Origin: Lachnospiraceae bacterium
GTDB lineage: Bacteria; Bacillota; Clostridia; Lachnospirales; Lachnospiraceae
Length of the DNA stretch: 62,630 bases
Direction: 5' to 3'
Assembly (NCBI GenBank): GCA_017437785.1
Contig: JAFRXH010000021.1
Location: 1-62,630, forward strand
This document shows, piece after piece, positions 27,888-51,265 of the stretch. The translations under genes and the position numbers were made by a program. The first letter of the stretch is position 1. Every line of letters begins with the position of its first letter. Below the pieces are notes generated by a model that was not told the origin of the DNA, did no database searches, and saw only the letters and a list, made by a program, of their open reading frames with translations.

Positions 27888-29351
27888 CTACCTTCCTGCG
27901 CTCTCTGCAAGTATGCAGGTCACGTGTATATTCCAGGTATTATCGCTTCCGTTTAAGCTGTAACCCGAATAGGATACCGAGCTGAATATATCCTCTTCCT
28001 GGATCCTGGCAATGAATTTGTTTATGTCCTGAACCCGCTCCGAATTGGCGGTAAAGCTCAGTGATCCTGCCACGGCATCAAAGCTTGTTATCTCTATCTC
28101 CGCATAGCCCGTAGCGCATCTCTCCAGCGGCTCCCTTATCTTCTCGTTAAAGATGGGATAGGTCTCTACCGCATTCTTTATATTTACATAGCTGTTATAA
28201 CGGTCGCTGCCTTCCTGTATATCACTCACAGCCTGATCATACACACCCAGCTGCATCAGTGTGGCCGGATTCTCGTTATAGGTCTTAACTGCATCCAGCT
28301 CTTCCTCAGTCTTCTTTTTCTGCAGATTTACGAATATCGTGATACCCAGCATTACCACAAATATAGCTGCTATCAGTAAAAAGCTCTTGCGCCAGAAGTC
28401 GTCGACCTTCTTCTCTTTCTTCTTTGCATTGAAATTCGTAAGGATGTTATTTGTCTTGTCCTGTCCGAAGAGACCTGCCAGTGCCGGCAGCACGGCAGTC
28501 AGATCAAAGCGGCGCCCCACCTTCTGTGAGATACCGCAGTCATACCATTCAACCGTCGCATCGATACGTGAGGCGCTTACCATCTGGCGGTACACATCGA
28601 TATCCAGGCCTTTGATGCCGGCCACGAAGATATTCTGTATAGGCGTCTCCATCTGATTTGCCTTCATGAACTGGGTCAGCTGTGAAAGTGCACGTACGCA
28701 CTCTTCCATGTATTCCTCCGTGCCCGGTTCGTTAAAGCAGCGCTGCCCGGAATAGTAAACGAAGTTACCCTCTGCCCACAGTACATTAGTGAGCATGTTA
28801 TCGTCAGCTACCTGTACCACGAAGTTTTTGCATCTCTTGCCGGCGCTCTGCTCGATGGTCCTGATCATAACGCCTTCGCTTGAATATATGCCCTTTAAGC
28901 TGACGCCCGCCTCATTGAACAGCGCGATATAGTCTTTTATGAATTCGGCATCCACGCTCTCTGCGTATGCCTTCTTTATCTTACTGCCTTTTTCTACAGC
29001 TAGGTTGGTATAGAAAAATACAGGCACCGAATCATCCCTGGTCACATCGTTAAACTCGCGTGCCACGAATTCCAGCGTCTTAGCAGGGCTCATAGCCGGG
29101 AGCTCTATCCTCTTTCCGGCTATCTTAGAGCTGTTTACTACCAGGCTCACATCCTTTGTGGAAAGCTTGTTATGCGCGAAAAAGCCCTTGATAAAGGGTG
29201 CCAGCGCATCCGGATCCATTATCATTCCGTTGATGACGCTGCCTTCCGGAGATGCCATTGTATAGGCTGCCCTGGGCTTAGCACCCGGGCCGCTGCCGCT
29301 TGCGGTCACCACCTGTATCTGTTTGTTGGAAATGTATATTACAGTGCTCAT
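27888..29351 (-). CDS. Fused PilM-PilN type IV pilus assembly protein
   Basis: A 487-residue protein combining two normally separate proteins. Residues 1 to about 320 form an actin-like PilM-type domain (it begins VIYISNKQIQVVTASG and ends RFDLTAVLPALAGLFGQDKT). Residues about 335-355 are a membrane helix preceded by KKKEKKVDDFWRKS. The rest is a PilN-like outside domain with a coiled region and a ferredoxin-like fold (YAEIEITSFDAVAGSLSFTA). In classical systems, PilM binds the cytoplasmic tail of PilN; the fusion makes this contact covalent. It sits between PilC and PilO as expected. Confidence 0.82.
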   Translation of the reverse strand: MSTVIYISNKQIQVVTASGSGPGAKPRAAYTMASPEGSVINGMIMDPDALAPFIKGFFAHNKLSTKDVSLVVNSSKIAGKRIELPAMSPAKTLEFVAREFNDVTRDDSVPVFFYTNLAVEKGSKIKKAYAESVDAEFIKDYIALFNEAGVSLKGIYSSEGVMIRTIEQSAGKRCKNFVVQVADDNMLTNVLWAEGNFVYYSGQRCFNEPGTEEYMEECVRALSQLTQFMKANQMETPIQNIFVAGIKGLDIDVYRQMVSASRIDATVEWYDCGISQKVGRRFDLTAVLPALAGLFGQDKTNNILTNFNAKKKEKKVDDFWRKSFLLIAAIFVVMLGITIFVNLQKKKTEEELDAVKTYNENPATLMQLGVYDQAVSDIQEGSDRYNSYVNIKNAVETYPIFNEKIREPLERCATGYAEIEITSFDAVAGSLSFTANSERVQDINKFIARIQEEDIFSSVSYSGYSLNGSDNTWNIHVTCILAESAGR

Positions 29352-29421: not shown

Positions 29422-30624
29422 TTAATGCGACTGGTTTGCGATCGTCTGGTAAGAGCCGTATATGGGCTGTATCACGGCTATCATGATGAAGCCTACGATC
29501 ACCGCCATCACCACTATCATTGTAGGCTCGAGCATGGCCACCATCTTGCTCACTGCCATCTCGGATTCAAATTCCATCTGATCCGCTATCGATATCAGCA
29601 TGGAATCCAGTGAACCTGTCTCCTCACCGACATTTACTGTAGAAGACAGCTTCTTGGTAAAACCATCTACCCGGTCGATCGCAGTCGAAAGGTTCTCACC
29701 GGAGCGGATAGCCGCTATCAGATCGTCAAACTGCGATTCTATATAGGTATTTCCGATGGTACTCTTTGCTATGGTCAGGCAGTTAAGTATGGATATACCT
29801 GCCGAATAAAGGCTGGAAAGCGTTCTTGCGAAACGTGCCGTATAGACTATCTTACGGAGCTTGCCTATGACCGGCATATGCACTTCAAATTTATCGCGGA
29901 GATATTTTACCTTTGGTATCGAAAAGACCAGCTTGATGATCATGTAGCCGACCACTCCGAAGAATATCAGCATATACCAGCGGTTTTTGACAAAATCGCT
30001 CATCGCCATCAGCAGCCTGGTCGCAGGCGGAAGGCTTTCCATCTGCGCGAACAGTTCTTCAAACTGCGGCAGCACGAAGCCCATGATGACTATGACCACT
30101 GCCACTATCATCACGCCCAGTATCTTGGGATAGGTCATCGAACTCTTTATCTTCTGGTTAAGGCGGTGTTCCTTGCTGTAATACTCAGCCATCTGATCCG
30201 CCACTTTATCCATGTTACCGGCGTTTTCGGAGCTTCGTATCATGTTGATGAAAAGACTGGGGAAAGTATCGCCCTGATCCATCAGCGCATCGGAAAGCGG
30301 CATACCCTGTCGCACGCTCTTTAACACATCTGCGTATATCTCACGCTCCTGAGGCTTTATGGATTCATCTTCCGATATTATCTTAAGCGCACGCACCAGT
30401 GTGATACCTGCGTTTATCAGCTTGCCCAGGTTACGTGAAAAGTCTGCCAGGCGGTCGGGTTTAAGTCTCTTAGTCCTTACCTTACCTGTCTGTTCCTTCG
30501 CCTCTATTAAAAATCTGCCTTCGGCTTTAAGCTTCTCATGAAGATCCTGCTCGCTGGTAGCGTTCATGATCCCCGATATTACTTTGCCCTGATCGTCTTT
30601 TGCTTTGTACCTGTAGGCTGCCAT
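29422..30624 (-). CDS. pilC: Type IV pilus platform protein PilC/GspF
   Basis: A 400-residue integral membrane platform protein that couples PilB motion to pilin insertion. It has the two T2SSF cytoplasmic domains, each followed by membrane helices near residues 170-195, 218-240 and 372-395. Family blocks are FSRNLGKLINAGITLVRAL (near 65), ENAGNMDKVADQMAEYY (near 135), FARTLSSLYSAGISIL (near 270) and GEETGSLDSMLISIADQ (near 330). The N terminus has the usual MAAYRYKAKDDQGKVISG. The length is typical. Confidence 0.96.
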   Translation of the reverse strand: MAAYRYKAKDDQGKVISGIMNATSEQDLHEKLKAEGRFLIEAKEQTGKVRTKRLKPDRLADFSRNLGKLINAGITLVRALKIISEDESIKPQEREIYADVLKSVRQGMPLSDALMDQGDTFPSLFINMIRSSENAGNMDKVADQMAEYYSKEHRLNQKIKSSMTYPKILGVMIVAVVIVIMGFVLPQFEELFAQMESLPPATRLLMAMSDFVKNRWYMLIFFGVVGYMIIKLVFSIPKVKYLRDKFEVHMPVIGKLRKIVYTARFARTLSSLYSAGISILNCLTIAKSTIGNTYIESQFDDLIAAIRSGENLSTAIDRVDGFTKKLSSTVNVGEETGSLDSMLISIADQMEFESEMAVSKMVAMLEPTMIVVMAVIVGFIMIAVIQPIYGSYQTIANQSH

Positions 30625-30662: not shown

Positions 30663-31094
30663 TTAATAAACAAATATTCTCCACATATAATCTACGGTCC
30701 AGTTTTCCTGCACGCCGTCATATTCATATCTTACCAGATAATGCGGCGTAGTGTAAGTAAACATCGCCACTTCTCTTGTGGTACGGTTATAGGAAAGCAG
30801 CGTGATGCCCTCACTGGTACCGGCATATCTTTGCAGCTTTTCTTCCACTCCGTCTGCCAGTCCGTTATGATGTTCCGGCGCATATATGGTCTTGCCCACG
30901 CCATACATCTCTATGTCTGCTGTGATGAGCGCCAGCTTGATATTCTTTGCCTCACGCAGTGCCATACGGCCTTCCGAATGTACCTTAAACACAAAGAAAG
31001 CTGCCAGCAGTATAAACAACACTGCTGTCACTATCAGAATTACGCGTATTACATTTACTACCTGCCGTTTGTTGTGTTCCTGTGGAGTTTCCAT
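30663..31094 (-). CDS. Small pilin-shaped membrane protein without prepilin leader
   Basis: A 143-residue protein with one membrane helix (about 15-38) that continues as an amphipathic helix (RMALREAKNIKLALITADIE), followed by a small beta-rich domain ending YDGVQENWTVDYMWRIFVY. The shape is that of a minor pilin, but there is no G before the helix and no TLVE motif, so it should not be cut by prepilin peptidase. It lies between the J-like prepilin and pilC in the operon. It may be a membrane-retained assembly factor or a degenerate pseudopilin. Confidence 0.6.
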   Translation of the reverse strand: METPQEHNKRQVVNVIRVILIVTAVLFILLAAFFVFKVHSEGRMALREAKNIKLALITADIEMYGVGKTIYAPEHHNGLADGVEEKLQRYAGTSEGITLLSYNRTTREVAMFTYTTPHYLVRYEYDGVQENWTVDYMWRIFVY

Positions 31095-31097
31095 TGT

Positions 31098-31829
31098 TTA
31101 CCTGTCCGTCGCCGTACGCAGTTCAATATTTACCGAATCGGCATCTTTATCATTTATATTATACATTTTAACATATTTATAAAAATAAAACTCGCCATAT
31201 TGAGGACTTTCCAAAGTAAGATATACCCCCACCACATTTCCGGGGTATTCGTTACTTCCGGCAGCCTTATCTTTATACGCCGTATCTTCTATGGTAGTGT
31301 CCGTCCCGGTATCTGCTTTTCCTTTATTTGCGGGTACGAAGCGCAGTGACTTTATGGAATATCCCATGTATACCGCCTCATCAAAGGTCCATATAACCTC
31401 GTCTTTGTGCCCCGCATCATATTCCGGATCTGGCTTTGCCTTGGGCGGGTTTATCTCAAAATATCTTATCTTTAATTCACCGTCTTCCGCATAGATCTGA
31501 ATATGCGTATCCGTCCTGTCATACAGGTCGATCTTTGTACCGGAGAGGTTATTGACTGCCTCATCTTCAAAAGATCTGAAGATAACGGGTCTGGTAAACT
31601 CATCTTCTTTTGATATCTTGGCGCCTTCTATCTCCCCGCTTATCTTGCTCATTACGATATCGGCGACCTGCCTGCCGTAAGTCTGCCCCTTCACATCAAA
31701 ATACACGTTGGTAACGTTCGATATGATCACCGCTGCAGCACTCATAAATATCCCCAGCAGCGCGAAGCACACCAGCATCTCGATAAGCGTGGAACCCTTA
31801 TTCAGTTTTCTTCCCGCTTTCTTAAACAT
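31098..31829 (-). CDS. Minor prepilin, GspJ/PilW-like
   Basis: A 243-residue prepilin. Cleavage is expected after Gly12 (KLNKG before STLIEMLVCFALLGIFM), leaving Glu5 in the mature protein. The globular part is larger than that of a major pilin and beta-rich (PVIFRSFEDEAV, IDLYDRTDTHIQIYAEDGEL), as in GspJ/PilW minor pilins, which form part of a tip complex. It lies after the I-like and K-like prepilin genes, in the order K-I-J. Confidence 0.8.
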   Translation of the reverse strand: MFKKAGRKLNKGSTLIEMLVCFALLGIFMSAAAVIISNVTNVYFDVKGQTYGRQVADIVMSKISGEIEGAKISKEDEFTRPVIFRSFEDEAVNNLSGTKIDLYDRTDTHIQIYAEDGELKIRYFEINPPKAKPDPEYDAGHKDEVIWTFDEAVYMGYSIKSLRFVPANKGKADTGTDTTIEDTAYKDKAAGSNEYPGNVVGVYLTLESPQYGEFYFYKYVKMYNINDKDADSVNIELRTATDR

Positions 31830-31839
31830 CAGGCTCTCC

Positions 31840-32346
31840 TTACGGTTTGGTCACTGCCGATGACGGATGCATCATGTACCGGAACCTCATAGCGCCGGGA
31901 CGTACAAGCTGCTCTTCATCGATCAGCGGATCTGTACATGTATACGATACCGCCTCAAGATTATCCAGACGGAAACGCGGCGGATTATCTTTATAATCAT
32001 CGATGTTATAGTTTACGCCCTGATAGTTTTTTTCCATATCGGTACGTTCCGTATCAAGTACCAGCCAGAAACGGCTTACGGTGGCGCCGCCGGTTCCGTC
32101 TTCATTAAACAGCTCGGTTGTAACAAAAGAATCGTCTATCGCATCCGGATTCTTATATATCTCCTTAAAAAACATCTGGTTCAGGCGTGAACTGTCAACC
32201 GCCTGCGTACGCAGCCTGCTCGAAAAATCGACGATATGAAAGAATAACGCCATAAGAGCTGCCAGTACGGTAAATGCTGCCAGCGTCTCTACAAGAGTCG
32301 TTCCCCTGTTATCCGTTTTTTTAACTGAGCCGTTCCTTCTCATCAT
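31840..32346 (-). CDS. Minor prepilin, GspI/PilV-like
   Basis: A 168-residue prepilin with a 15-residue leader (MMRRNGSVKKTDNRG) cut before TTLVETLAAFTVLAALMALF; Glu5 is present. The TTLVETLAAFTVL wording is typical of GspI/PilV-type minor pilins. The second Met is an equally possible start. Its leader is nearly the same as that of the preceding K-like gene although the bodies differ. The gene follows that one after only 2 bp. Confidence 0.82.
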   Translation of the reverse strand: MMRRNGSVKKTDNRGTTLVETLAAFTVLAALMALFFHIVDFSSRLRTQAVDSSRLNQMFFKEIYKNPDAIDDSFVTTELFNEDGTGGATVSRFWLVLDTERTDMEKNYQGVNYNIDDYKDNPPRFRLDNLEAVSYTCTDPLIDEEQLVRPGAMRFRYMMHPSSAVTKP

Positions 32347-32348
32347 CC

Positions 32349-33017
32349 TTACTCACTCCCGAGATACTTCCATATCCAGACACATCTCCTGTCTATCAGA
32401 TTACCCGCAGGATTGACATCTGTCTGTCCGGTAACTTCGGCATAATCGCTTATAGTCCCGGTCTTTTCGCGCAGCTCATACTCGCTCCTTATCACATAGC
32501 TCTGGCTTCCGGAGCGGCATTCCACTTCCACAAACAGATGCGTATAGTCGCTCTTGTTGACTGATGTCCCCGGACAGGTCCACCACATACATACGCTTGT
32601 ACTGCTCGGAAAGCCGTTTATACTGGCCGAATCCGATTTTTCGAGTCTGAAATATCTTTTCGCATACTCCCAGGTATTACTGTCCTTATCGGGATCGTAA
32701 TGCGGCCAGGTCTCACCGCCCGGATTCTTAAGCGCATCATTTCCCGACACTATATTATACCTTAGATACTTGGCTAAAAAACTGTCTTCAGATCCCGATG
32801 TCAGATCTTCCCTTATGGACATATCGAGACTCTTTGCCGCTTCGGCATTCTTATCCTCCTGCATGCTGTTGTTCTGGGAACTGTAGAGGCTGTAGCATAC
32901 CGAAAGGAGTGAAAAACAGAATATCATAAGGATAGCGATAATGGTGATACACACCATCATTGCCACACCGCGGTTATCTGTTTTTGATCCCTGTCTTCTC
33001 ATCATCCTTTTGATCAT
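32349..33017 (-). CDS. Minor pilin of PilX/GspK type lacking Glu5
   Basis: A 222-residue protein. A 17-residue leader ends TDNRG and is followed by VAMMVCITIIAILMIFCFSL. Position 5 of the mature chain is Val, not Glu. In type II secretion, GspK, the pseudopilin at the very tip, also lacks Glu5, and PilX-type proteins begin in a like manner. The rest is a soluble domain with a possible disulfide (VCMWWTCPG). The ATG overlaps the stop of the giant GLUG prepilin (ATGA), so translation is coupled. It probably caps the fibre with the I- and J-like proteins. Confidence 0.72.
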   Translation of the reverse strand: MIKRMMRRQGSKTDNRGVAMMVCITIIAILMIFCFSLLSVCYSLYSSQNNSMQEDKNAEAAKSLDMSIREDLTSGSEDSFLAKYLRYNIVSGNDALKNPGGETWPHYDPDKDSNTWEYAKRYFRLEKSDSASINGFPSSTSVCMWWTCPGTSVNKSDYTHLFVEVECRSGSQSYVIRSEYELREKTGTISDYAEVTGQTDVNPAGNLIDRRCVWIWKYLGSE

Positions 33018-36000
33018 CTGTTTATCAGCTTATTGTATACCGTTACAAGCGTATCATACCTTTGAGAGAGCGGCTTGCTGAAATCCGAAACATCTGTTGC
33101 TCCGCAGTTGATGCCCGTCTTATAAGCGCGGTCATCAACTATTGCATAAAGTATATGATCGTTATCCTTCTTATATACCGACACAAGGGTCTTGGGCCTG
33201 TTAAAGCTGTAATCGGTGGCCTCTTCTCCGTCATGCGTGGTATCGGTGATAGTTCCGTAGAGCAGATAGTTCTTCTCCTCTCCGGCTGCTTCGGCATATA
33301 TACTGTTTGCTCCACCGGCTTCGAAGCAGCGGTAAATACCTGCTGCGCCTCCGCGCGTGATACCGTAAGCCTGCCCCGAACCGGAAGTAACACTGCCGTA
33401 ATCCCTGCAGTCTTCGATCCGCGCATTTGTGTTTCCGTCAACTTCCCTTATATGCGCCACGATCCCGGCAGCTATACCGTCAGCTGTGATATTTCCTTTA
33501 TTTTCAAGATTACTGAATACGGTTTGGGATCCGTCCCTTATCTCTCCAAGCCCCGCAAACGCGCCCGCCATTCCTTTATTTGCCGCAAGATCCATTTCGT
33601 TTACGCAATTTGCTATCGTTCCGGAATTGACACCCGCAAATACTCCTGCGGCACCGCTGTCATCTTTGACCTCTATCCCCACCGATACCGTACTGTCTAT
33701 CGTTATACCTGATATGTTTCCGCGGTTTTCTCCGGCTACCAGGCCCACGTATAAGCCCCTGAGTGCCACGCCCCTGTCTGAATATCCGGTACGTGCCTGT
33801 TCTGAAGCATCAGTATGCTGTATAGATCCAAGATTTATTCCGCATATTCCGCCGGCATACGCTTCGCTCTCCACGCTTATCACATAGTAGAACTCATTTG
33901 CCAGCTCTATTACAGCGGCATTTTCTCCGCATAAGCCTCCGACATATACGGCCCCGGTCACATCAAAACCGTCATATTCTCCGTTACCCTTACGGCTTGA
34001 GAATGATCCGATAAGACGGCCTGCGTTTCTGCCGCATAATCCGCCGACATATGCAGCCGATCCGTTGTGTCCGCTGCCGTACTGCGCATAACCCACCGCA
34101 CAGTCCTGTATAGTTCCGTAATTGACCTCACACAGAGGCCCGTAATAATCCGAATTTGAAGATATCAATCCGGTATTGCTGCAGTCGTTTAATACCATGC
34201 GGCCGCCCACACGTCCGATGATACCGCCTGCATACGTATATCCTTCATCTATCAGTTCCGCGCCCGATGTGCTTACTGCCGCCTTTGAATCTGCATCTAT
34301 GTATATGCTCTGTGCATCTGGTACGAATCCGAAGATACCGCCTGCCCAATACTGTGCAGCCACTTCACCGGCCTTTATGATATCATCAAGCTCCAGCTTA
34401 AGATTATTGACGATCCCCGAATTAGCACTGTCCTTGATATTGTTCGTATATTCAATACCCGATACACCCATCTGCGCCGAAATACCGTCAAGCGATCGTG
34501 CTTTATCTGCTGTAGAATTATTGTTATCCATAGCAGAATAAAGAACATCCAGAGCATGGTTACGGTCTGATGCGCTTACCTGATAATATCCGTAATATCC
34601 GCCCGCAACCACTTCATTAGCCACAACTTTCATATTACCGTTTGCCGTGATGAATTTATCGTTTGGTACCAGCCAGTGTGTATCATATGCGCTGACTTCA
34701 GGCAGCACTGCCGCCCCTGCAAATCCGCCTGCAAAGCTCTTTGCATAGACTTCCGATACTCCGCTTACAGCTCCGGAGAATCCATCGCTTCCATCATATA
34801 AAGCCTGATCTGCCACAGCTCCCGCAAACCCGCCCGCAAACAGGCCGTCTGCCACTACCCTCTGCAGGCCGCCGTTTTGCGTGATCACACGTCCCGCATA
34901 CTGGTTAGGCTGCGTGCTTCCCGCTTTCACACATCCGGCAAACCCGCCCGCATAGCTATATGCATGAACTATAAAGTCTCCGGTGATATCAGCATTAGTC
35001 AAAACAGAGCCACTCTTCAGCAGGCCGCATATTCCGCCGGCAAAATCCTCTTCGGCCAGGATATAGCTGCCCGCAAACGACGCCTGATCTTCTATACCGG
35101 CTGCAGCCGCACCATTAATGAGCAGACAGTTATAGACTGTCTTTAACTTTGTGTTATTATCGGCGGCGGCTGCGTCCACACATCCAGCCGCACCACCGAC
35201 CATCGTCCTGCCGTATACTATGGCATTTATCTCACTGCTTCCGTTTTTGTAATTGATCTTTCCGCAATTAAAGCCGGCGAGACCGCCCGCACATGCAGCC
35301 GAATAAGCAGTATTTCCCTTGGCCATCGTTATCAGAGCCATCATCTGCTTTTGGGAATCTGCGCTCATTATACAGCTGCAATCGTCTATCTCTTCTGCAT
35401 TCCACCCGCAGATACCGCCGGATAAGCCGTAGTACTCAGGCTTACTGCTGTCGCTTTCATCATTACCCATGGCATAGGTAAGTCCGGTATTGAGCAGTCT
35501 GTTGTTTCTGTTGTCCGGTTTCGCTGCAAGCTCCGGCAGCTTAAGGCCGATAGACTGGGGATCGCACTGATAAACGCGCATGTCAGCCACATGATCGTCA
35601 CCGGTCTTAAAAGCCCTTCCTATCACAGCCGCCACACCGCCTACGCCAGTCTTTCCTATCACGTTGATGTTATTGGTTGTTTTACTTGTGTTATCGCTCT
35701 TAAATGCACAGAGCTCGGCTATTCCGCAGTAGCCTCCCACGTAATAACGTCCTATCAGATATGCTCCGCTATCCGCAGGTGCATTGGAACAGTTATCAAA
35801 TGCAGCACGCCTTGCATATCCGACCAGACCGCCGTAATACCAGCCGCGCATCTGTTCGCTCAGCGCGCCCATATCTCCGCTCTTTCCGCTGATAAAGGTT
35901 TTTATCTCTTCATCCGTATACAGCCAGTAGCTTGAGCAGTCATTGAAATTCAGATCCGCATCATCTGCGCTGAAAGCTTCGCCGTCTACATTATCGCTTG

Positions 36001-38578
36001 CCATGCCGCATATGCCGCCCAGATAATATGCTCCACGCACATCAGAGAGTGTTGCATCGCTGCTGTCAGCTTCACCGGCATTGTATATGGGCAGGGCCAG
36101 AATACGGCCGCGGTTTACGGCAGTATCAAATGTCACGCCTTTCAGGTTCATTTTGTTTGTGATGGTGTTGACTGTATAACGGTCCGTTTTCGCCCCGTCG
36201 TATTTTGCGATCACACGGCCGCTTATCCCGCCTATATACATCTGACCGCATACATAAGCTTCGTTCGTAAGGTTCGAATATAAAGGTATCGCAGAATCTC
36301 CGTAAGCATATTTCTGATAGCCGTATATACCACCCACATCATGGATACCCACCACAAAGCTGGTATTCTTTTTATACAGCTCATCTGTAATGAATGCTTT
36401 AAGTACAGTACCGTCGCTTAAGGTATCATAAGCTGTCTTATGGTATGTTTCTGTTCCATCCGAATTGCTGCCATAAAAGAACGGTACTACCTGCCTTAAA
36501 GCTATCAGTCTGCTTATCGTGGATTCTTCTGCCTTGTCGATGCTTCCTGCAGTATTTGCGTCGTTCTGTAATTTAAGCGCCGAAAGCATACCTAGGTTCT
36601 CTCCTACGAAGCCGCCTGTTTTATATGTACCGAACACTTTATGCTTCTTTAAGGTCAGCCCCTTGATCTCTCCGTAATTATATGCGAAAAGCCCTGTGGG
36701 GTGCTGTCCCTTTGCCCTCTCAAACTCCTGAAGATCAAAGGACGCAGTATCACCTTTTGCCGCCTTAAGATACAGCTCTTTTGCATCATAACCGTACACT
36801 CCGTAACGCTCGTTAGCATCTGTCGTTATGGTCAGATCCGATATATATGTACCGTTTTCGGCGCTAAAGCTGCTGCCTGCACTTAACTGTTTAAATGACG
36901 GGAAATCCTCTATCTCGGTCTCTATGTCAGCATATCCCATTCCGGGCTTTTCTCCGTCGCAAAGATAATAAGAATCAAACAGGAAGTTTTCTCCGGCCGT
37001 GCCGCCCCTGAACTGATATGCACAGAAGTTGCGCCAGTTGATATTCTCTGTCAGCTTATACTCGCGATCATACGCTTTTCCCCAGTCAATATTATTCTTC
37101 AGATCACCCGGAGCCGGCGTTTCACTGACATCAGTGATCTTATCCGCATAGTCCTCTGTAAATCTGATATTATAGAGGTGTCTGCCGTTAGCTATCTCAT
37201 ATGTTGCCTTCGATCCGTTTCTTTCGACACTGCCAAATGCCACGAAAGCTGCCTCATCTCCTCTGCTCGTCTTTCCATGGCTGCTGCTGAATACTTCTTC
37301 ACTCACTTCCGTAGGATCCAGTGCGTTCTGTATCACCAGTCCCAGTTCTATCTCATCGGTATTAAGCCCGAAGCGGTAGAAACTGTAGGTTTTTGAAAAT
37401 GCCTCTTTGGCCTTGGCTGCTTCTTCATCGCTGAGTCCGGTATCAGAAAGCTTCATCGCTCTGTCATATAATACGGATTGTGCCTGTATATCTGCGGCAT
37501 CAAGCGCTATACGTATAGCACGGTCTCCGGTCGCCGTTACTTCCATCCATACCGGTACCATGAATACAGGTGCTTCTTCTCCTGCCGCCAACTGCACATC
37601 TAACCCGCCTTTATAATAAGTCGCTTTCATCTGTGTGGCATTCTTGCCCTGTGCGAGCTTCATGGAAGTGGGAAGCGGTTTATTCCCGGAAACAGTAAAC
37701 TCAAGCGTCATAAGGCGCTCCTTTGAACCATGATCGTCTATGCTTAGCTTGAATGTATACGCCTTATCAACAGCAAAGATATCATGCTCGCTCAGATCCG
37801 GCACATAAAGTGCATCAAGCAGTTCCTCGTTTCTGAGCACGAAATCCTTCACGCGGATCTTAAGCGTATTATCGGTCTTGCCCTTTATAGGCATGGACAA
37901 TGTAGCGACACCATAGTATCCCAGTGCCAGCTCATTCCTTATATCTTCCCTTCTGCGCTTTATGCAGATCCCGTCATCCTCGCTGTAGCTTAAGGGCGAA
38001 TTGCTGCTGTAACATACAGCAAGTACCTGCGCTGCGTCAGGCGAGAACTCCATTACGATCGATCCGTTATTTAAGACTGCTTTATCGTAAATATATGCAG
38101 TGATAAGCTTGAACAATAAAGCCGTTCCCTTGTCAAGACTCTCATCCTGATCAAGGAATGCCTGATAATCGCCGGGATTGCTGCTTACCGATACTATGGT
38201 TCCCTGACTGTATCCCGTCTTCCACACATTTTTCCACACATAGTTATTACCGTCAGGGTCCTCCAGTTCGGATATGGCTATGGATCCTTCCCCGCCGTTT
38301 TCGGTGATCCAGATGGCGTTACTGCTTTTATCCAGAGCTTCTTTCACTTCACGTTCAAGCGAACCACTGGCCGAATAATCCGAAAGCTGTGTCTGCGCAG
38401 CCACAAAGATACTTTCGGCGTTGGCATTAAGCTGCTTCATCTTTGACCAGTCCTGCCATGCCATTATCCCGCCCACGCTCAAAGACAATAAAATAACCAT
38501 GATGACCAGCACCACGATCATCTCGACTAAGGTAAAGCCGGCATTATTCAATTGTCTTCTCAGTCTTTTGTTTTCCAT
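33014..38578 (-). CDS. Giant modular prepilin with GLUG-like repeats (1854 residues)
   Basis: The 14-residue leader ends NAG, and cleavage gives FTLVEMIVVLVIMVILLSLS with Glu5, so this is a true prepilin although it is about ten times the usual length. After the pilin helix (to about residue 55) comes a region of some 400 residues with no recognised domain, then from about 460 to 1780 many repeats centred on GGICG, GGFAG and GGLCG, such as AGGIIGRVGGRMVLNDCSNTG. These match the GLUG-type beta-helical repeats of clostridial surface adhesins. There is no C-terminal anchor. The pilin part would be built into the fibre, leaving a long beta-helix as a probable adhesive domain, most easily placed at the tip. 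It overlaps the K-like pilin gene by 4 bp. Confidence 0.88.
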   Translation of the reverse strand: MENKRLRRQLNNAGFTLVEMIVVLVIMVILLSLSVGGIMAWQDWSKMKQLNANAESIFVAAQTQLSDYSASGSLEREVKEALDKSSNAIWITENGGEGSIAISELEDPDGNNYVWKNVWKTGYSQGTIVSVSSNPGDYQAFLDQDESLDKGTALLFKLITAYIYDKAVLNNGSIVMEFSPDAAQVLAVCYSSNSPLSYSEDDGICIKRRREDIRNELALGYYGVATLSMPIKGKTDNTLKIRVKDFVLRNEELLDALYVPDLSEHDIFAVDKAYTFKLSIDDHGSKERLMTLEFTVSGNKPLPTSMKLAQGKNATQMKATYYKGGLDVQLAAGEEAPVFMVPVWMEVTATGDRAIRIALDAADIQAQSVLYDRAMKLSDTGLSDEEAAKAKEAFSKTYSFYRFGLNTDEIELGLVIQNALDPTEVSEEVFSSSHGKTSRGDEAAFVAFGSVERNGSKATYEIANGRHLYNIRFTEDYADKITDVSETPAPGDLKNNIDWGKAYDREYKLTENINWRNFCAYQFRGGTAGENFLFDSYYLCDGEKPGMGYADIETEIEDFPSFKQLSAGSSFSAENGTYISDLTITTDANERYGVYGYDAKELYLKAAKGDTASFDLQEFERAKGQHPTGLFAYNYGEIKGLTLKKHKVFGTYKTGGFVGENLGMLSALKLQNDANTAGSIDKAEESTISRLIALRQVVPFFYGSNSDGTETYHKTAYDTLSDGTVLKAFITDELYKKNTSFVVGIHDVGGIYGYQKYAYGDSAIPLYSNLTNEAYVCGQMYIGGISGRVIAKYDGAKTDRYTVNTITNKMNLKGVTFDTAVNRGRILALPIYNAGEADSSDATLSDVRGAYYLGGICGMASDNVDGEAFSADDADLNFNDCSSYWLYTDEEIKTFISGKSGDMGALSEQMRGWYYGGLVGYARRAAFDNCSNAPADSGAYLIGRYYVGGYCGIAELCAFKSDNTSKTTNNINVIGKTGVGGVAAVIGRAFKTGDDHVADMRVYQCDPQSIGLKLPELAAKPDNRNNRLLNTGLTYAMGNDESDSSKPEYYGLSGGICGWNAEEIDDCSCIMSADSQKQMMALITMAKGNTAYSAACAGGLAGFNCGKINYKNGSSEINAIVYGRTMVGGAAGCVDAAAADNNTKLKTVYNCLLINGAAAAGIEDQASFAGSYILAEEDFAGGICGLLKSGSVLTNADITGDFIVHAYSYAGGFAGCVKAGSTQPNQYAGRVITQNGGLQRVVADGLFAGGFAGAVADQALYDGSDGFSGAVSGVSEVYAKSFAGGFAGAAVLPEVSAYDTHWLVPNDKFITANGNMKVVANEVVAGGYYGYYQVSASDRNHALDVLYSAMDNNNSTADKARSLDGISAQMGVSGIEYTNNIKDSANSGIVNNLKLELDDIIKAGEVAAQYWAGGIFGFVPDAQSIYIDADSKAAVSTSGAELIDEGYTYAGGIIGRVGGRMVLNDCSNTGLISSNSDYYGPLCEVNYGTIQDCAVGYAQYGSGHNGSAAYVGGLCGRNAGRLIGSFSSRKGNGEYDGFDVTGAVYVGGLCGENAAVIELANEFYYVISVESEAYAGGICGINLGSIQHTDASEQARTGYSDRGVALRGLYVGLVAGENRGNISGITIDSTVSVGIEVKDDSGAAGVFAGVNSGTIANCVNEMDLAANKGMAGAFAGLGEIRDGSQTVFSNLENKGNITADGIAAGIVAHIREVDGNTNARIEDCRDYGSVTSGSGQAYGITRGGAAGIYRCFEAGGANSIYAEAAGEEKNYLLYGTITDTTHDGEEATDYSFNRPKTLVSVYKKDNDHILYAIVDDRAYKTGINCGATDVSDFSKPLSQRYDTLVTVYNKLINR

Positions 38579-38606
38579 ACTGTTTCTCTGTAAATGTACG
38601 TATTAC

Positions 38607-39272
38607 TTACGGAACCACGTTGTAAACGTCATGTAATTCCTGATATGCCGCGTGATTATCGCCTTTATGTGCTTCATCTCCCGTGCAGTCACGCAGGGTA
38701 TACATATCCGATATATAAACAGGACCGGTCGCTACGTTGTCGGGAAGGCTTATCGCGCCATTTTGTATTACATCACTGAGCGTAGTCTTATCCCAGTCTC
38801 CGGCATAAAAGATGACCGGATCACTGCCCTTAGTCTCAACATAGACCATAGCGTATACTATATATCCTTTTTTCAAGCCGGAGAGACCGGCATCCGCATA
38901 GTTCCCGGTGCCATAGCTATCCGAGATATTCCCGGTAAAGAATCCGCAGATATACGGTCTGACGTCAACGCCCGCATTATAGAACACATCGGCGCTCCAG
39001 TCGTCTCTCCAGTTATAACCTCTGCTTAACTCCGTAGTCTGATCCGGCATCATTCCCTGATCATAAAGAGCCGTAAGCTTATTCTGCACCGCGTTGAGTA
39101 TCGCCTTAGCATTATTGCGTTCCCTTTCCCTGTTACCGTTATCGATATAGCCTAACAGCGCGGGAGCAAGTATACCGGCAAGAAGGGCAAGGATAACGAG
39201 CACCACGATCAGCTCCACCAGGGTGAAGCCTTTGTTGCTGCTAATAACCTTACTCTTATTACATCTCACCAT
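38607..39272 (-). CDS. Type IV prepilin
   Basis: About 221 residues from the ATG at 39272, which has GGAG ten bases upstream; an ATG three codons earlier is also possible but sits too close to the same site. The leader ends SSNKG and is followed by FTLVELIVVLVILALLAGIL with Glu5. The helix runs through NGNRERERNNAKAILNAVQNKL. The C-terminal domain contains a Y..DWDKTTLSDVI block. It lies between the two giant prepilins, and could be a mid-fibre or adaptor pilin. Confidence 0.85.
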   Translation of the reverse strand: MVRCNKSKVISSNKGFTLVELIVVLVILALLAGILAPALLGYIDNGNRERERNNAKAILNAVQNKLTALYDQGMMPDQTTELSRGYNWRDDWSADVFYNAGVDVRPYICGFFTGNISDSYGTGNYADAGLSGLKKGYIVYAMVYVETKGSDPVIFYAGDWDKTTLSDVIQNGAISLPDNVATGPVYISDMYTLRDCTGDEAHKGDNHAAYQELHDVYNVVP

Positions 39273-39298
39273 TATACTCATTCTCCAACTATCTGCTG

Positions 39299-42200
39299 TC
39301 AGCGATCCGTTATATTAGTAAAGTATCCAGGACTGGTTTTTGTACCTATCTTGGCATATAACTGTGATCTGTTATTATTGTCATATACTGTTTCGCCTCC
39401 ACCTATAAGCTTTACATCTCCTTCAAAGCATGTATTCTTAATTTTATTTGTAAGGTCGGCATATGTCGTTCCTTCCCAAACATAAATCCTTTCAAGGGCG
39501 ATGCACATTTTAAACATACTTCCGACGTTGTCAGCATTTTTCATATTAGGATGGCCAACACATTTTTCTCCGAATACTATGGTCTTAAGCTGACTGTCCG
39601 CTTTGAAATCATTAGCAGTAACCGATATAGTTTCTCCGTTTTCAATATTTACAGTCTTTCCATTAACCCATTCTTCCATACTGAACATGCCCTCCATCGT
39701 TTCGATGCTTTGAAGATCAAAGCCCTCAATGGATATTTCCGGCATCCTAAAACAGCCTTTAAACATAAACTTCGTATTTTTCAGCTTATTGCCTGTATGT
39801 ATAAGACTTGTATCCGTGGAGCTACTAAGTTTTATACATCCGAAAAACATCTCCTGCATAGACTCAACTGCAGCAAAATCACTGCCTCCGGCTTTAAATG
39901 ATACCGTGGTAAGTTTATAACAGTTTTTAAACATATACGCTGTTGTGGTAACCTGACTCACATTAAATGCAGATATGTCAAAACTTGTTATATTATAACA
40001 TTCGTCAAACATATAGCTCATATCAGTAACTCCATCAGTATTAAAATCAGTAAGCACCAGGTTTTCAAGCTTTCCGTATCCTTGGAACAGTTTGCTCATA
40101 TTACTCCTGTTAGCAAAAGCGCATTTGCTCAGATCCAGAGTCTTTACATATGCTTTACCTGCTGCGATTATTGATTTACTGATAGCCATATCATTGGTCC
40201 ACTCCTGCATCTTGAGCGTTTCAAACTTGGTACAGGTCTTAAACATATCTGTCGTAGTAATTGTACCTGAAGCGGGCAGCTTCCATTTAGATATATCAAG
40301 CTCTTCAAGATTGCTGCAGCCTTCGAACATACCCTTCATAGTATTAGCTGAAGACAGATTCCAGCCAGAAAGATCCTGCTTTATAAACCCGGTGCAGTTC
40401 TTAAACATATAGTTCATATTCTCCACAGAAGACAGGTCTATATCGGAAAGATCAACGGTAGTTAACGCACTGCAGTTCTCAAACATATAGCTCACATCCT
40501 GTACCGCTCCCATCTGAAGACCTGTTCCCGAAAAGCTCTTTAATGCCGTACAGCCTTTAAACATCTGCGACGCATTGGTTACACTGTTCAACTCTACACT
40601 GCTCATATCTATGACTGCCAGCTTCACACAGCCATTAAACATCTGCGATGCATTGGTCACATTATTTAATTCCATCCCCTTCATTTCGATAGTCTCCAGA
40701 CTGGTACAGCCACTAAATAAAGCGTTCGCGGTAGTAGCATCATTAGCCTTAAAGCCATTAAGTATGATCTTTTCAAGCTTTGTAGCTCCGCTGAACATAG
40801 TACTCAGATCCGAACCGCCTGTGAAATCACAGTCTGTCATATCCAGAAGCTTTAAATTGCCCTTTATTCTTGAAAGTATCCACTTGCTGAGGGGCAGATT
40901 AGTAGTCCACTTCTGCATCTTAAGTGTCTCAAGTTTAACACAGTCCTTAAACATATCTGATGTATCAGCTGTGCCCGAAGCACTCAGCTTCCATTCAGAT
41001 ATATCAAGCGACTCGAGATTGCTGCATCCCCAAAACATACCCTTCATATTATTAACTGAAGACAGATCCCAGCCCGACAGATCCGTATGTACCAGACCTG
41101 TGCAATATTTAAACATATTGCTTATTACCTGCACTGTAGACAGCGGGAAGGATGAAAGGTCTACCGTTTTGAGTGCAGTACAGCTCTCAAACAGACTGTT
41201 CAAATTCTGTATCGACTTCATTTCAAATCCCGTCACCTTGAAATCCACAATTGATGAGCAGTTCATAAACATCTTGGATGCATCGGTCACATTATTCATT
41301 TTCATGCCATCAAGTTCTATGTCCGTAAGCATGGTACAACCATTAAACATACCGATTGCAGATGTTGCATTAGCAGCCCTGAAGTCGTTTAGCTGCGCCT
41401 CTACAAGATTCGTACATCCACTGAACATAGATGCCACTGAGCTTACATTATCAAGATGAGCACCGTTATAGCTTACGCTCTTTAACTTTGCTTTATTAGG
41501 AACACAGAAACTTAATATGCCATTACCTACGCCTTGCGAATTCGGATCCGCCTTCAATCCTGACATATCTACATATTCAATATTAGTACAATCCTTAAAA
41601 AAATCTGCCAGACTCTCGACGTTTGTCAGATCCCAGTTCTTAAGGACCACTGCATTGATCCCCGTACATCCCTGGAACATGGCTTTCGCTGCCTCAGTTT
41701 TACCCCAGTCATGCCCTTCTTCAACAATAGACTCATCTTCAACCACCCCCACCAGGCCTGATGTATCCCAGTAGGACAGATCAACAGTGCCCTCAAGCGA
41801 CTTGCAGTTTAAGAATGCCGATCCTATAGTGATCAGTTTCCCGCCTTTAGGCGCCAGTTCCTTTGTGTTCCACCCTGTAAGATTGAATGTTGCAACCCCG
41901 CAATAACTGAATGCCGAATACATATTCACAAGATTGCTCAGATCCCAGTTGGATAGATCGATTTCCTGTAACAGCGAATCCTGCGTGAACATCTGCCTCA
42001 TATTCTTGACCTTTTTAGGTTTTCCGTTCCATGCAGAAAGGTCAAGCGTCGTAAGCGCATAATTTCTCTTAAAGCAGGATCTGAAGTTCTCAACATTTGT
42101 AGGATCTATGCCTGAAACATCCAGGGAAACCAGTGCCATATTCTCATCAAAAGTCTCACGCATGTTTGTAAGTGCGCCGGTAGTTGTGATCTTTCCCTTT

Positions 42201-43954
42201 ATCTCAGTCAGTTTACGACAATACTTAAAGGTTTTGTTAAGTGTTGTACATGAGCTCAGATTCCAGCCTTCCTGGCCGAGATCGACAGTACTCAGATTGC
42301 CGCATGAATTAAAAGTAGCATAACAGTCCTTAACACCGCTTACATTCCATCCCGGCAGTGAAAGGCTCTTCACACCACTACTCTCAAATGTCTGCCTTAA
42401 ACAGCCTACGGAATTATTCCTAAATACGTCTCCAAAAACAAATGTCGTATTTCCGGATGTCTCCCTGAAGGTACCTGTAAGGTCTACCAGCTCTCCCAGT
42501 TCTATGATGCCGCTCATATCAAGAGTTGAAAAGCCGGTGGCCTTTTTGAAACATTCCGTCATATCAGTCAGCTCCGGTGCGATAAATTCATCACCCCAGT
42601 CAATGGTATTCAGTCTGGTACTCTCTGCAAAAAGCTGGGTACAATCTTCGATCCTGGATACATCAAATCCCCTGAAACTAAACTTTTTCAGGTTTTCCCT
42701 CTTACTTAACATACTGCTGCAATCGGCAGGCATAAAAGCCACCTTTGCATTTGTCCACCATTTTAATGTAGTTCCTTCATACCATGCATAAATATAATAA
42801 TCCGGATGCGACCTGTCATCTATTATGGTCTTCCCGTTTGTATCGAAAGTATCGGATACAACCATAACAACATCGGTAGTATTCCTGCCTCCTATAAAAT
42901 CATGCAGCTTAGAATTGCTGACAATAGCCTGCTCTTTGGTATTGGGATCCCTGATAACATTAGCCACAAAGGTAAATTCGAGAGTATCTTCGTTTGCATC
43001 ATCAAAGATATATGCCCCGATCTCATTCTTATCCTTGCAGATCTTTCCCGTCCCAGGTTCCTTCCAGTAACGGAACATATATGTATCCGCAATCTTAAGG
43101 ATAAGATTACGCATAAGCTTGGAAAAGGCATTTTTATTGCCCGTGGATGTCCATGCCCAGTCGGTCGTTATCATGCCGTTATCATCCTGATAGAATGTGA
43201 CCGGCAATCCTTCTTCCTGTGTTTCTGCACTGTTTTCGTCAGCGGCAAAGAATGCCCTGCCTTTATCCGCCCTTTTAAGGATCACGAGCTTTGACTTCTT
43301 AGCCACATAAGGATCGGGGTCGGGATCGTCAGGATCGGGCTTGGGTGCAACCGGATCCATCAGCGCATAATCATCTCCCTTTTCAAACGGCCATACATGG
43401 ATAACTTCTGCATTATCACTTTTTGATATACTGACATTTTTAGCTGCAGCAGCGCTAAGGTAAGCCAGCGCATCAGCCTCGTTATCATACAGAGTCCACT
43501 CAACTCCGTCATAAGCGGCATAATCGGATTCATAATCCTTATACAGTGCCATAGCCACGGTATAAGAACCTATCTCATCGACTATCGCGTTAGTCGCCTC
43601 TCTGTCACCCTCGGGTTCATCATACAGGCTTACAACACTCCATACGGTAAACTCCGTATTATCTCCGTCAGTGGAGCCGGCATTAACACGTGTCTGAATT
43701 CTCTTTTCGGTAGTATACTTATTATCATTGGATGTATAGATATCGGAAAGCGCCGCCTGTGTGGAAGTGAGCGCTGTCTGTGCCCTGGCGATAACCTGCT
43801 TTTTATGGGCATTATCGATGAATCCTAACACCGCAGGTATTGCCAGTGCCGCCAGAATGGCGATTATGACGAGTACGACAATAAGCTCCACCAGGGTGAA
43901 GCCTTTCGATCTCTTGCATATATTCTTATATCCGTTCCGTCTTTTATCTTTCAT
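39299..43954 (-). CDS. Giant modular prepilin with DUF285/BspA-like repeats (1551 residues)
   Basis: Starts at the ATG at 43954 with AAGGAG upstream; the frame is open six codons further to a GTG. An 18-residue leader ends RSKG and precedes FTLVELIVVLVIIAILAALA with Glu5. The pilin-like head ends near residue 190, and a Pro/Asp-rich hinge follows (KPDPDDPDPDPY). From about residue 340 to 1500 come about 40 DUF285 repeats of some 24 residues (for example LDMSGIIELGELVDLTGTF and NVTNASQMFNGCVKL), the same fold as in the secreted BspA-like protein at 5465-9280. No other anchor is visible. It fits a modular pilin carrying a leucine-rich adhesin. Confidence 0.9.
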   Translation of the reverse strand: MKDKRRNGYKNICKRSKGFTLVELIVVLVIIAILAALAIPAVLGFIDNAHKKQVIARAQTALTSTQAALSDIYTSNDNKYTTEKRIQTRVNAGSTDGDNTEFTVWSVVSLYDEPEGDREATNAIVDEIGSYTVAMALYKDYESDYAAYDGVEWTLYDNEADALAYLSAAAAKNVSISKSDNAEVIHVWPFEKGDDYALMDPVAPKPDPDDPDPDPYVAKKSKLVILKRADKGRAFFAADENSAETQEEGLPVTFYQDDNGMITTDWAWTSTGNKNAFSKLMRNLILKIADTYMFRYWKEPGTGKICKDKNEIGAYIFDDANEDTLEFTFVANVIRDPNTKEQAIVSNSKLHDFIGGRNTTDVVMVVSDTFDTNGKTIIDDRSHPDYYIYAWYEGTTLKWWTNAKVAFMPADCSSMLSKRENLKKFSFRGFDVSRIEDCTQLFAESTRLNTIDWGDEFIAPELTDMTECFKKATGFSTLDMSGIIELGELVDLTGTFRETSGNTTFVFGDVFRNNSVGCLRQTFESSGVKSLSLPGWNVSGVKDCYATFNSCGNLSTVDLGQEGWNLSSCTTLNKTFKYCRKLTEIKGKITTTGALTNMRETFDENMALVSLDVSGIDPTNVENFRSCFKRNYALTTLDLSAWNGKPKKVKNMRQMFTQDSLLQEIDLSNWDLSNLVNMYSAFSYCGVATFNLTGWNTKELAPKGGKLITIGSAFLNCKSLEGTVDLSYWDTSGLVGVVEDESIVEEGHDWGKTEAAKAMFQGCTGINAVVLKNWDLTNVESLADFFKDCTNIEYVDMSGLKADPNSQGVGNGILSFCVPNKAKLKSVSYNGAHLDNVSSVASMFSGCTNLVEAQLNDFRAANATSAIGMFNGCTMLTDIELDGMKMNNVTDASKMFMNCSSIVDFKVTGFEMKSIQNLNSLFESCTALKTVDLSSFPLSTVQVISNMFKYCTGLVHTDLSGWDLSSVNNMKGMFWGCSNLESLDISEWKLSASGTADTSDMFKDCVKLETLKMQKWTTNLPLSKWILSRIKGNLKLLDMTDCDFTGGSDLSTMFSGATKLEKIILNGFKANDATTANALFSGCTSLETIEMKGMELNNVTNASQMFNGCVKLAVIDMSSVELNSVTNASQMFKGCTALKSFSGTGLQMGAVQDVSYMFENCSALTTVDLSDIDLSSVENMNYMFKNCTGFIKQDLSGWNLSSANTMKGMFEGCSNLEELDISKWKLPASGTITTTDMFKTCTKFETLKMQEWTNDMAISKSIIAAGKAYVKTLDLSKCAFANRSNMSKLFQGYGKLENLVLTDFNTDGVTDMSYMFDECYNITSFDISAFNVSQVTTTAYMFKNCYKLTTVSFKAGGSDFAAVESMQEMFFGCIKLSSSTDTSLIHTGNKLKNTKFMFKGCFRMPEISIEGFDLQSIETMEGMFSMEEWVNGKTVNIENGETISVTANDFKADSQLKTIVFGEKCVGHPNMKNADNVGSMFKMCIALERIYVWEGTTYADLTNKIKNTCFEGDVKLIGGGETVYDNNNRSQLYAKIGTKTSPGYFTNITDR

Positions 43955-43981: not shown

Positions 43982-44668
43982 TTATTTTTCCTTCCAATCC
44001 GAATTATCCTTCAGATGCTTCCATATATCACTGCCGACCCCTTTTTTGTCCTTATTTGCTATCACATAATACTGAAGATCTATATCGTATGATGTCAAAC
44101 GGTTAGGGTTTTTCTGGCCACCGGTAACAGCTTTTAAACGTACATCCGTAGGATACAATAATCCCCATTCATCTCCGTAAAAATATATAGGCTTGGAATC
44201 TTTCTTCTTCTGATACATAACCAGATAAACCGTATACTGCTTACGGCGATCCTTCTCGGCAGCATATGTTTTGGTGCTTCCCAATCCTACTACAAGAATA
44301 TACGGACTATCATCCGCTGTTTTGAGTACAGCTTTTCCAAAATCCGTTTTAGTAGCATCAACATCTCTGTTGGTGCCTTCATTCTTGATCTCAAGGCCTT
44401 TCTGACCATCTATCACGCTTTTTACTTCGCCGCCGTCTTTACGGGAAGCGTACAGCTTCGTCAATTCTGCCTGCGTAGCCGTAAGGCAGTTCTTTGCATC
44501 GATCATGTCCTGCTTAACCCTGGCGCTGTCGATCCACCCCAACAGCTGAGGTACAAGTAATGCCGCCAGTATAGCAAGGATCACAAGTACCACAATAAGC
44601 TCCACAAGGGTGAAGCCTTTCGTGTTTTTGAATATTGCTTTGTTTATGCCTCGAGTTTTAGTCTTCAT
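43982..44668 (-). CDS. Type IV prepilin, paralogue of the first pilin gene
   Basis: 228 residues from the ATG at 44668, behind AAGGCAGGTG; a GTG two codons earlier is the alternative. The leader ends NTKG, followed by FTLVELIVVLVILAILAALL with Glu5. The mature part shares PQLLGWIDSARVKQD, ATQAELTKLYA, PYILVVGLG, KDSKPIYFYG and YYVIAN with the product of 44757-45452, so the two arose by duplication. It is probably a major or co-major pilin given its place near the promoter. Confidence 0.93.
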   Translation of the reverse strand: MKTKTRGINKAIFKNTKGFTLVELIVVLVILAILAALLVPQLLGWIDSARVKQDMIDAKNCLTATQAELTKLYASRKDGGEVKSVIDGQKGLEIKNEGTNRDVDATKTDFGKAVLKTADDSPYILVVGLGSTKTYAAEKDRRKQYTVYLVMYQKKKDSKPIYFYGDEWGLLYPTDVRLKAVTGGQKNPNRLTSYDIDLQYYVIANKDKKGVGSDIWKHLKDNSDWKEK

Positions 44669-44756
44669 AAGCACCTGCCTTGCACTTGTTCATATCATCC
44701 GTGCATATACCTTCCTGTCATCTCCGATCAGCCCTTATCAGTGCTCATTCATATGA

Positions 44757-45452
44757 TCATTTGTTACATTGGTCACGAAGGAACTTCCAAATCTGGTTAT
44801 TTGTAACTGTCTTTTTGCTTCCGTTAGCTATAACATAATACTGTATAAATATTCCATTGCTTATTAATTCGTTTCCAGCCTTAAATACACATCCCGGCTT
44901 GCTGGCATCTTTCTCAAGATAAAGCGTAGTCCACTGCTCCCCGTCAAAAAAAAGCGGTTTTGAGTCCTTCGTCCTCATATACATTGCGACATATATAGTA
45001 AATGCCTTTTTCAGATCCGTATCCTCATATTTTTCTCGTCTTCCAAGCCCAACTATTAGGATATAGGGTTTTTCATCGGCCATTGCGAGCAGATCCTCTG
45101 CAAACTGAGTACCGACCACATCAACATCGCCATTATCATTCACACCGTATTTGCCTTCCACAATTGTTGAACGCTTCTGATCCTGCTTATCCGTGCCATT
45201 AACACCAGCCTTTTGTCCTTCTCTTGCAAAAGCGTACTGTTTGGTAAGCTGTGCCTGTGTTGCCGTCACACAATTCCTGGCATTAAAGATATCCTGATTG
45301 ATCTTTGCCCTGTCTATCCAGCCCAACAGCTGGGGAATTAAGATCGCAGCCAGGATGGCAAGGATCACGAGCACTACAATAAGCTCCACAAGGGTAAAGC
45401 CCTTGCGGTTCTTAAGTATCTTTTCTGATCTTCCCATACTGTTATCTTTCAT
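44757..45452 (-). CDS. Type IV prepilin, first gene of the pilus operon
   Basis: A 231-residue prepilin. The leader of 18 residues ends NRKG, before FTLVELIVVLVILAILAAIL with Glu5. The globular part is closely related to that of the next gene (PYILIVGLGRREKYED, KDSKPLFFDGEQWTTLY, YYVIANGSKK). AGGAGCAGG precedes the ATG, and the operon promoter lies 39 bp upstream, so this is likely the most strongly expressed gene and the best candidate for the major pilin. Confidence 0.94.
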   Translation of the reverse strand: MKDNSMGRSEKILKNRKGFTLVELIVVLVILAILAAILIPQLLGWIDRAKINQDIFNARNCVTATQAQLTKQYAFAREGQKAGVNGTDKQDQKRSTIVEGKYGVNDNGDVDVVGTQFAEDLLAMADEKPYILIVGLGRREKYEDTDLKKAFTIYVAMYMRTKDSKPLFFDGEQWTTLYLEKDASKPGCVFKAGNELISNGIFIQYYVIANGSKKTVTNNQIWKFLRDQCNK

Positions 45453-51174: not shown

Positions 51175-51265
51175 CGATATGCTCCGTTCTATCAGTATCA
51201 TTGAAGTACTTTCCGTTTCACTTTACACTATTACAAACATATTTACAATCTGCAAAATTTTTTTC

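Follow-up and report, generated by a model that had tools for sequence, protein, structure and literature searches.

The locus analysed here raises the question of what two very large proteins, each starting as a prepilin and continuing as a long repeat solenoid, are doing in one type IV pilus operon. The window (the whole stretch of DNA analysed, 62,630 nucleotides) is contig C71 in its entirety, from a Lachnospiraceae genome of 3.2 Mb in 107 contigs. A type IV pilus gene set spans positions 45452 to 23428 on the minus strand, in the following order (the slash marks the predicted cleavage site).

44757..45452, minus strand: prepilin, 231 aa (N_methyl 38.1 bits)
43982..44674, minus strand: prepilin, 230 aa (N_methyl 34.4 bits)
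39299..43954, minus strand: modular prepilin P0002, 1551 aa (N_methyl and 10 DUF285 stretches)
38607..39281, minus strand: prepilin between both giants, 224 aa (N_methyl 32.6 bits)
33014..38578, minus strand: giant modular prepilin P0001, 1854 aa (N_methyl, G/FTLVE)
32349..33017, minus strand: K-like minor pilin, 222 aa, G/VAMMV, without Glu5
31840..32346, minus strand: I-like minor prepilin, 168 aa, G/TTLVE (by position and signal)
31098..31829, minus strand: J-like minor prepilin, 243 aa, G/STLIE (N_methyl 27.9 bits)
30663..31094, minus strand: small membrane protein, 143 aa (in relatives it recurs near minor pilins and PilC or PilD)
29422..30624, minus strand: PilC platform protein (T2SSF, E 2.4e-55)
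27888..29351, minus strand: PilM-like protein (PilM_2 18.1 bits, cut-off 27; TIGR01175 26.2 bits, cut-off 133; both below)
27121..27879, minus strand: PilN/O-like (T2SSM-like) protein (T2SSM 17.8 bits, below the cut-off of 27.8; same position in relatives)
25340..27025, minus strand: PilB assembly ATPase with an MshEN domain (T2SSE, E 1.7e-124; MshEN, E 1.4e-13)
24122..25186, minus strand: AAA ATPase between PilB and the last pilin, 354 aa (Pfam matches all below cut-off)
23428..23940, minus strand: prepilin, 170 aa (position after PilB)

Five clear prepilins precede the K-like gene, two of them (P0001 and P0002) very large; the 231-aa and 230-aa prepilins are paralogous, with 37% identity over 172 aa once the N-terminal helix is set aside. 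Read from 44674 to 29422, the intergenic gaps are 27, 17, 28, -4, 2, 10, 3 and 38 bases, the negative value being a 4-base overlap of the start of the K-like gene with the P0001 stop, and because these gaps are so short the genes of this stretch likely form one operon. The 170-aa prepilin is likely the major pilin, given its place after PilB, as in genomes G120, G004 and G116. No prepilin peptidase (PilD) was seen within the window; the Peptidase_A24 match of this genome that exceeds the cut-off sits on contig C92, as part of another type IV pilus locus that has its own pilins and T2SSE-type ATPases, one of them PilT-like (PilT named by eye). The operon in the window presumably borrows the peptidase of the C92 locus, and perhaps its PilT. 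A Tad-like locus, likewise named by eye, lies on contig C104. Rfam, searched at the gathering score across the window, gave a tRNA and nothing else.

A preliminary description of this DNA had proposed two genuine class III signal sequences on proteins of 1551 and 1854 residues, and the analysis bears this out. Both frames are present and open, both keep G/FTLVE with Glu5, and N_methyl exceeds its curated cut-off of 21.2 bits in P0002 (34.8 bits) as well as in P0001 (24.8 bits). The 1551 residues of P0002 are counted from an ATG that follows AAAGGAG; an in-frame GTG further up would give 1557.

Behind its pilin module P0002 is a leucine-rich repeat (LRR) protein. Its 10 DUF285 stretches score E 4e-97 in Pfam (320.7 bits, cut-off 25), and the PARCEL repeat TIGR02167 of NCBIfam scores E 9.5e-38 (127.4 bits, cut-off 30). 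The repeat period is 26 residues, with a 236-residue duplication in addition. At 26 residues each the region of about 441-1450 holds some 39 repeats, which makes the earlier figure of about 40 a fair one; a loose repeat pattern gives 25 matches, one of which lies elsewhere in the protein. Residues 1-1150 were modelled with AlphaFold from five sequences (mean pLDDT 67.6, pTM 0.51). The predicted layout consists of a pilin module (about 18-190) with a helix at 21-74 whose first part is of low confidence, a PD-rich linker (about 206-216), a beta domain (about 218-400, low confidence), and an LRR solenoid from about residue 424; pLDDT is 70-90 in most of the LRR part and below 50 in the linker and the middle domain. 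Foldseek found 105 PDB matches to this model at E<=0.001, with low TM-scores. Among the best 50 of the 105, Toll-like receptors head the list and nearly all are LRR proteins by title, internalin A and a Leptospira LRR protein among them; two rows are axoneme assemblies.

The solenoid of P0001 is of another kind. Its predicted model comprises a helix (17-71), a pilin head up to about 227 that appears intact, a beta-sandwich (about 246-431), a junction RHLYNIR at residue 466, and a GLUG-like parallel beta-helix from about 560; 20 GGxxG-type sites are irregularly spaced over residues 655-1743. Foldseek alone gave nothing for this model at E<=0.001 (best 0.15), and a second look with VIA-align matched it to 3n6z and to the parallel beta-helix fold. 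The GLUG-like repeats reported earlier for this protein stand by modelled fold and by relatives; as a Pfam assignment they do not, GLUG (PF07581) having no match in P0001 at E<=0.1. When seven other giants were scanned at the cut-off of 20.5 bits, L080 (34.3 bits) and L078 (32.8 bits) passed, L084 (14.9 bits) fell below, and L087, L069, L083 and L079 gave no match. The repeats of P0001 are GLUG-like by kinship and predicted fold, then, and the protein is not a scoring member of PF07581. If each coil of the beta-helix takes up 20-25 residues and gives a rise of about 0.5 nm, as assumed here, the P0001 arm would be some 25-30 nm long. Domain search and structure prediction, run on both proteins, give a prepilin and a non-pilus domain in each, and together with the profile search they agree on the central claim of the preliminary description, namely that two prepilins with different solenoids (LRR and parallel beta-helix) share one type IV pilus operon.

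An assembly error or frameshift that joined heads to repeats is ruled out, because many other assemblies also encode such a head and its repeats in a single open frame; in the gene tables of the relatives' loci, no head and repeat region were noticed as genes of their own. A protein search with the P0001 head found matches in 50 of 150 genomes of the same family, many of them limited to the pilin helix. A profile of the P0001-type head minus the pilin helix (A1, 14 rows) matched 51 of 397 same-family genomes, that of the window included, and 13 of a class-wide sample of 391 genomes, with three of the 13 belonging to the window's family. In the profile surveys, weak matches such as G253 (E 3.5e-4) and G219 (from the LRR-pilin survey described below) are taken as scored. 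At least one matching frame of at least 1,400 residues is present in 45 of the 51 genomes; six match in frames of fewer than 1,000 residues only (G152, G162, G172 with one stop, G313, G394, and G044, which is the one inspected).

Named loci were collected by a single pattern, RHL[YN]N[IM]R[YF]x[ETA], and of the 69 stretches that it matched, 50 could be confirmed. These lie in 48 loci, and 33 of the loci name Lachnospiraceae in their titles. The initial comparison covered 20 giants selected for a similar head and for repeats, and every one of them has the RHL-x-N motif where head meets solenoid; since the motif was the search key for the named loci, finding it there proves nothing. Some of these loci are near copies (L102/L104, for example), and the set overlaps with the surveyed genomes (L111/G036, L114/G012, L115/G337, L116/G086, L117/G148, L118/G180, L122/G052, L126/G133, L128/G015, L129/G077, L137/G184, L138/G340). 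Judged by sequence comparison, the beta-helix prepilin is a widespread and conserved family in Lachnospiraceae and in some other families of the class, and no curiosity of one genome.

Fusions of the LRR type are also found beyond the window. LRR prepilins with a P0002-type head occur in seven genomes: that of the window, G120 (1692 aa), G160 (2220 aa), L096 (1162 aa), L097 (1136 aa), L098 (1094 aa) and L143 (Lachnospiraceae bacterium AC2029, 2077 aa). The curated cut-offs for N_methyl and DUF285 are exceeded in each of these proteins, and in every case a giant follows closely downstream of the gene, one small pilin intervening in three of them (the window, L096 and L097). By profile, the LRR pilin was found in five of the 397 same-family genomes, three of the matches, including that of the window's own genome, being strong. 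Since it always accompanies a giant and is confined to these few genomes in the profile survey, the LRR pilin looks, from sequence and gene order, like an add-on to the giant and not the reverse.

The genes that follow the giant bear on its role. The frame end of the giant is contained in 32 of the 48 named loci, and the next gene is readable in 29 of these; in 27 of the 29 its product, of 173-267 aa, begins like a prepilin and has no Glu5 by our pattern rule, the cassette being absent in L127 and L136. Of the 21 sets in which three genes can be read, 20 have Glu5 absent from the first product and present in the third. The middle gene of the 21 full sets has Glu5 in 15 and Ser5 in four, and was not read as a pilin in two (one being L136); among the 20 fitting sets, Ser5 occurs in four, and one middle gene was not read as a pilin. 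Four co-encoded minor pilins (giant, K-like, I-like and J-like) are thus found in the window and in 20 of the 21 full sets, and in G004 and G116 the order is K-I-J-giant, with the giant last instead of first. A PilT-like gene, recognized by eye, lies directly upstream of the giant in ten named loci (L106, L111, L113, L114, L115, L117, L130, L134, L139 and L141), which fits a retractile pilus. All neighbour-gene counts at named loci come from mechanical ORF calling and ad hoc regular expressions.

This arrangement recalls the HIJK minor pilins of type IV pili and type II secretion, which are co-encoded, include one subunit (K) without Glu5, and form a complex that caps and primes pili (PMC9934059, PMC10191384). 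The H, I, J and K identities, with the giant as the H member, would follow from gene order and the missing Glu5, not from demonstrated homology. The K-like protein has no pilin family among its Pfam matches, and its best PDB sequence match (E 0.37) is not a pilin. For the I-like protein a profile search of PDB sequences gave no match; N_methyl scores 14.6 bits, under the cut-off, in the window protein, and matches 12 of 13 alignment members at E<=0.1. The same search with the J-like protein reaches pilin N-termini, and N_methyl matches 16 of 16 alignment members. Pilin likeness of I and J in Pfam, and of J in PDB sequences, is confined to the N-terminus. H-type subunits are small in known systems, whereas the fourth subunit here has about 780 to 7,660 residues.

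We consider it fairly probable that P0001 and P0002 are minor type IV pilins in which a long solenoid is grafted on a pilin module, and that P0001 serves as the H-type tip subunit together with K, I and J. The tip position is better grounded than before because the giant-K-I-J gene order is conserved; the P0001 family probably occupies the tip of the pilus and may be the part that grips. The course from cleavage and incorporation to adhesion and retraction we infer as follows. The prepilin peptidase encoded elsewhere in the genome would cut before FTLVE; the helix of P0001 would then assemble with K, I and J into the initiating complex of the fibre, in which P0001 would be the H-type subunit. 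As PilB and PilC add major pilins beneath this complex, the beta-helix would travel ahead of the growing pilus through the cell wall and stay at its end, held out as a large binding surface that a retraction ATPase could reel in. P0002 would offer a second, LRR binding surface on the same fibre, probably near the tip.

The giants might instead be processed and remain in the membrane, held by the pilin helix as surface adhesins that never enter the fibre, with the pilus genes merely sharing their operon. Their sheer size speaks for this, as does the lack of a sortase LPxTG-type signal in P0001, in P0002 and in the last 80 residues of 32 complete named giants, which led us to reject sortase anchoring and leaves the pilin helix as the only visible anchor. 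We nevertheless hold such membrane adhesins to be unlikely, given the fixed place of the giant beside the K-like gene in the 27 loci, the pilin head that is predicted intact, and the retained Glu5, a residue that serves packing in the fibre (PMC10191384). A bristled fibre, with the LRR and beta-helix pilins set along the shaft at low density, agrees with the observation that minor pilins specific to one system can be placed along the length of a fibre (PMC10191384). In a comparison of 13 sequences, moreover, the N-terminal helix of P0002 is closest to the likely major pilin (57.6% over 66 aa, against 30% over 117 aa with P0001), and P0002 aligns with the pilin that follows PilB in G120 at 40% over 155 aa. 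Beyond the helix, however, its likeness to major pilins is weak in the same comparison (best E 5e-4), and P0001 is co-encoded with a set of the tip type; we regard a bristled shaft as quite improbable.

The weak likeness outside the helix also led us to discard the idea that P0002 is a simple extension of the major pilin. That the operon encodes the pseudopilus of a secretion system, with the giants as piston parts and other proteins as its exports, hardly seems credible: piston subunits are small, the gene set holds several pilins, and PilT-like genes adjoin the giants in relatives, while in its favour there are the core parts common to pilus and secretion machineries and matches to GspG-type models, generic and far below cut-off.

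Several elements of such a system are already known: modular pilins, two modular pilins in one monoderm tip complex, and a beta-solenoid pilin. The PilA/PilB/PilC set of Streptococcus sanguinis likewise belongs to a monoderm type IV pilus and combines two different modular pilins and a small subunit without Glu5 in a modelled tip complex (PMC9934059). Its modules are vWA and lectin domains, much shorter than the solenoids of about 1000 residues or more found here, and PilA, the subunit without Glu5, is I-like, whereas here K-, I- and J-like genes all remain beside the giant. Like P0001, Thermus ComZ has a pilin framework with a beta-solenoid, and it has been argued to fit at the tip only (PMC6561018). 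ComZ is, however, a DNA receptor for competence, and its solenoid is built into the pilin framework, whereas that of P0001 is appended behind an extra beta-sandwich. ComZ is also smaller than P0001. Two domain entries bear on novelty, IPR026906 and IPR011493, which we take to be the BspA-type LRR and GLUG, respectively. In the catalogue of Raynaud et al. (2021), with more than 1,200 modular pilins in 264 architectures, IPR026906 is among the 15 commonest added domains and an IPR012902-IPR011493 architecture is mentioned; the most extreme multi-domain case has 860 residues, and no giant, operon context or DUF285 pilin was met in the accessible parts of that paper (PMC8179133). PilC/PilY1, the tip adhesin of diderms, resembles the giants as a very large modular adhesin presented via a minor-pilin complex; it is not a pilin, in contrast to the giants, and is described as absent in monoderms (PMC9934059). 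In the open PMC literature, judged by title or abstract, we found no paper on giant prepilins, a GLUG or DUF285 pilin, a giant GLUG-like prepilin family, or the place of a giant in an HIJK-like cassette.

The size range within the family is wide. A prepilin frame in G179:C19:308001-336000 (L161, L162) has 7,664 codons, the start GFTITE, the junction RHLSNLRY and, by pattern, 67 GGxxG-type sites (53 + 14). By our estimate this pilin would have a mass of roughly 800 kDa if expressed, and on the same assumed beta-helix rise its arm would exceed 100 nm, enough to clear a thick wall. In G184:C36 (L163) two giant prepilins stand in tandem, with open frames of 3222 and 3167 residues and near-identical starts. 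We know of no precedent for pilins of 200-800 kDa (mass from length). Tentatively, and with more doubt than for the two proteins of the window, giant solenoid prepilins may form a general and, as far as the literature search above goes, undescribed class of tip adhesins in Clostridia: they would unite initiating H-type pilin and tip effector in one polypeptide, filling the role that the H subunit and PilY1 have in diderms; gains and losses of repeats would set the arm length, anywhere from fewer than 800 to about 7,660 residues, and some species would carry an added LRR pilin as a second arm.

Gut and rumen commonly harbour Lachnospiraceae, and little is known of the means by which these bacteria attach to fibre, to mucus or to one another. 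A conserved giant pilin would offer a concrete, testable adhesin in dozens of genera and would suggest what replaces PilY1 in monoderms; it would also raise the question of how so heavy a subunit, of hundreds of kilodaltons, can cross the wall on the tip of a thin fibre. The nearest two of the named loci (51% and 42%) are from sheep-rumen assemblies; the rumen setting that these relatives alone suggest would point to fibre, mucus or other cells as the possible binding partner.

Upstream of the pilus genes, at 47183-51201 on the minus strand, the gene for a 581-aa protein with no Pfam match overlaps that for a 758-aa BNR-repeat protein, and this pair is possibly glycan-related.
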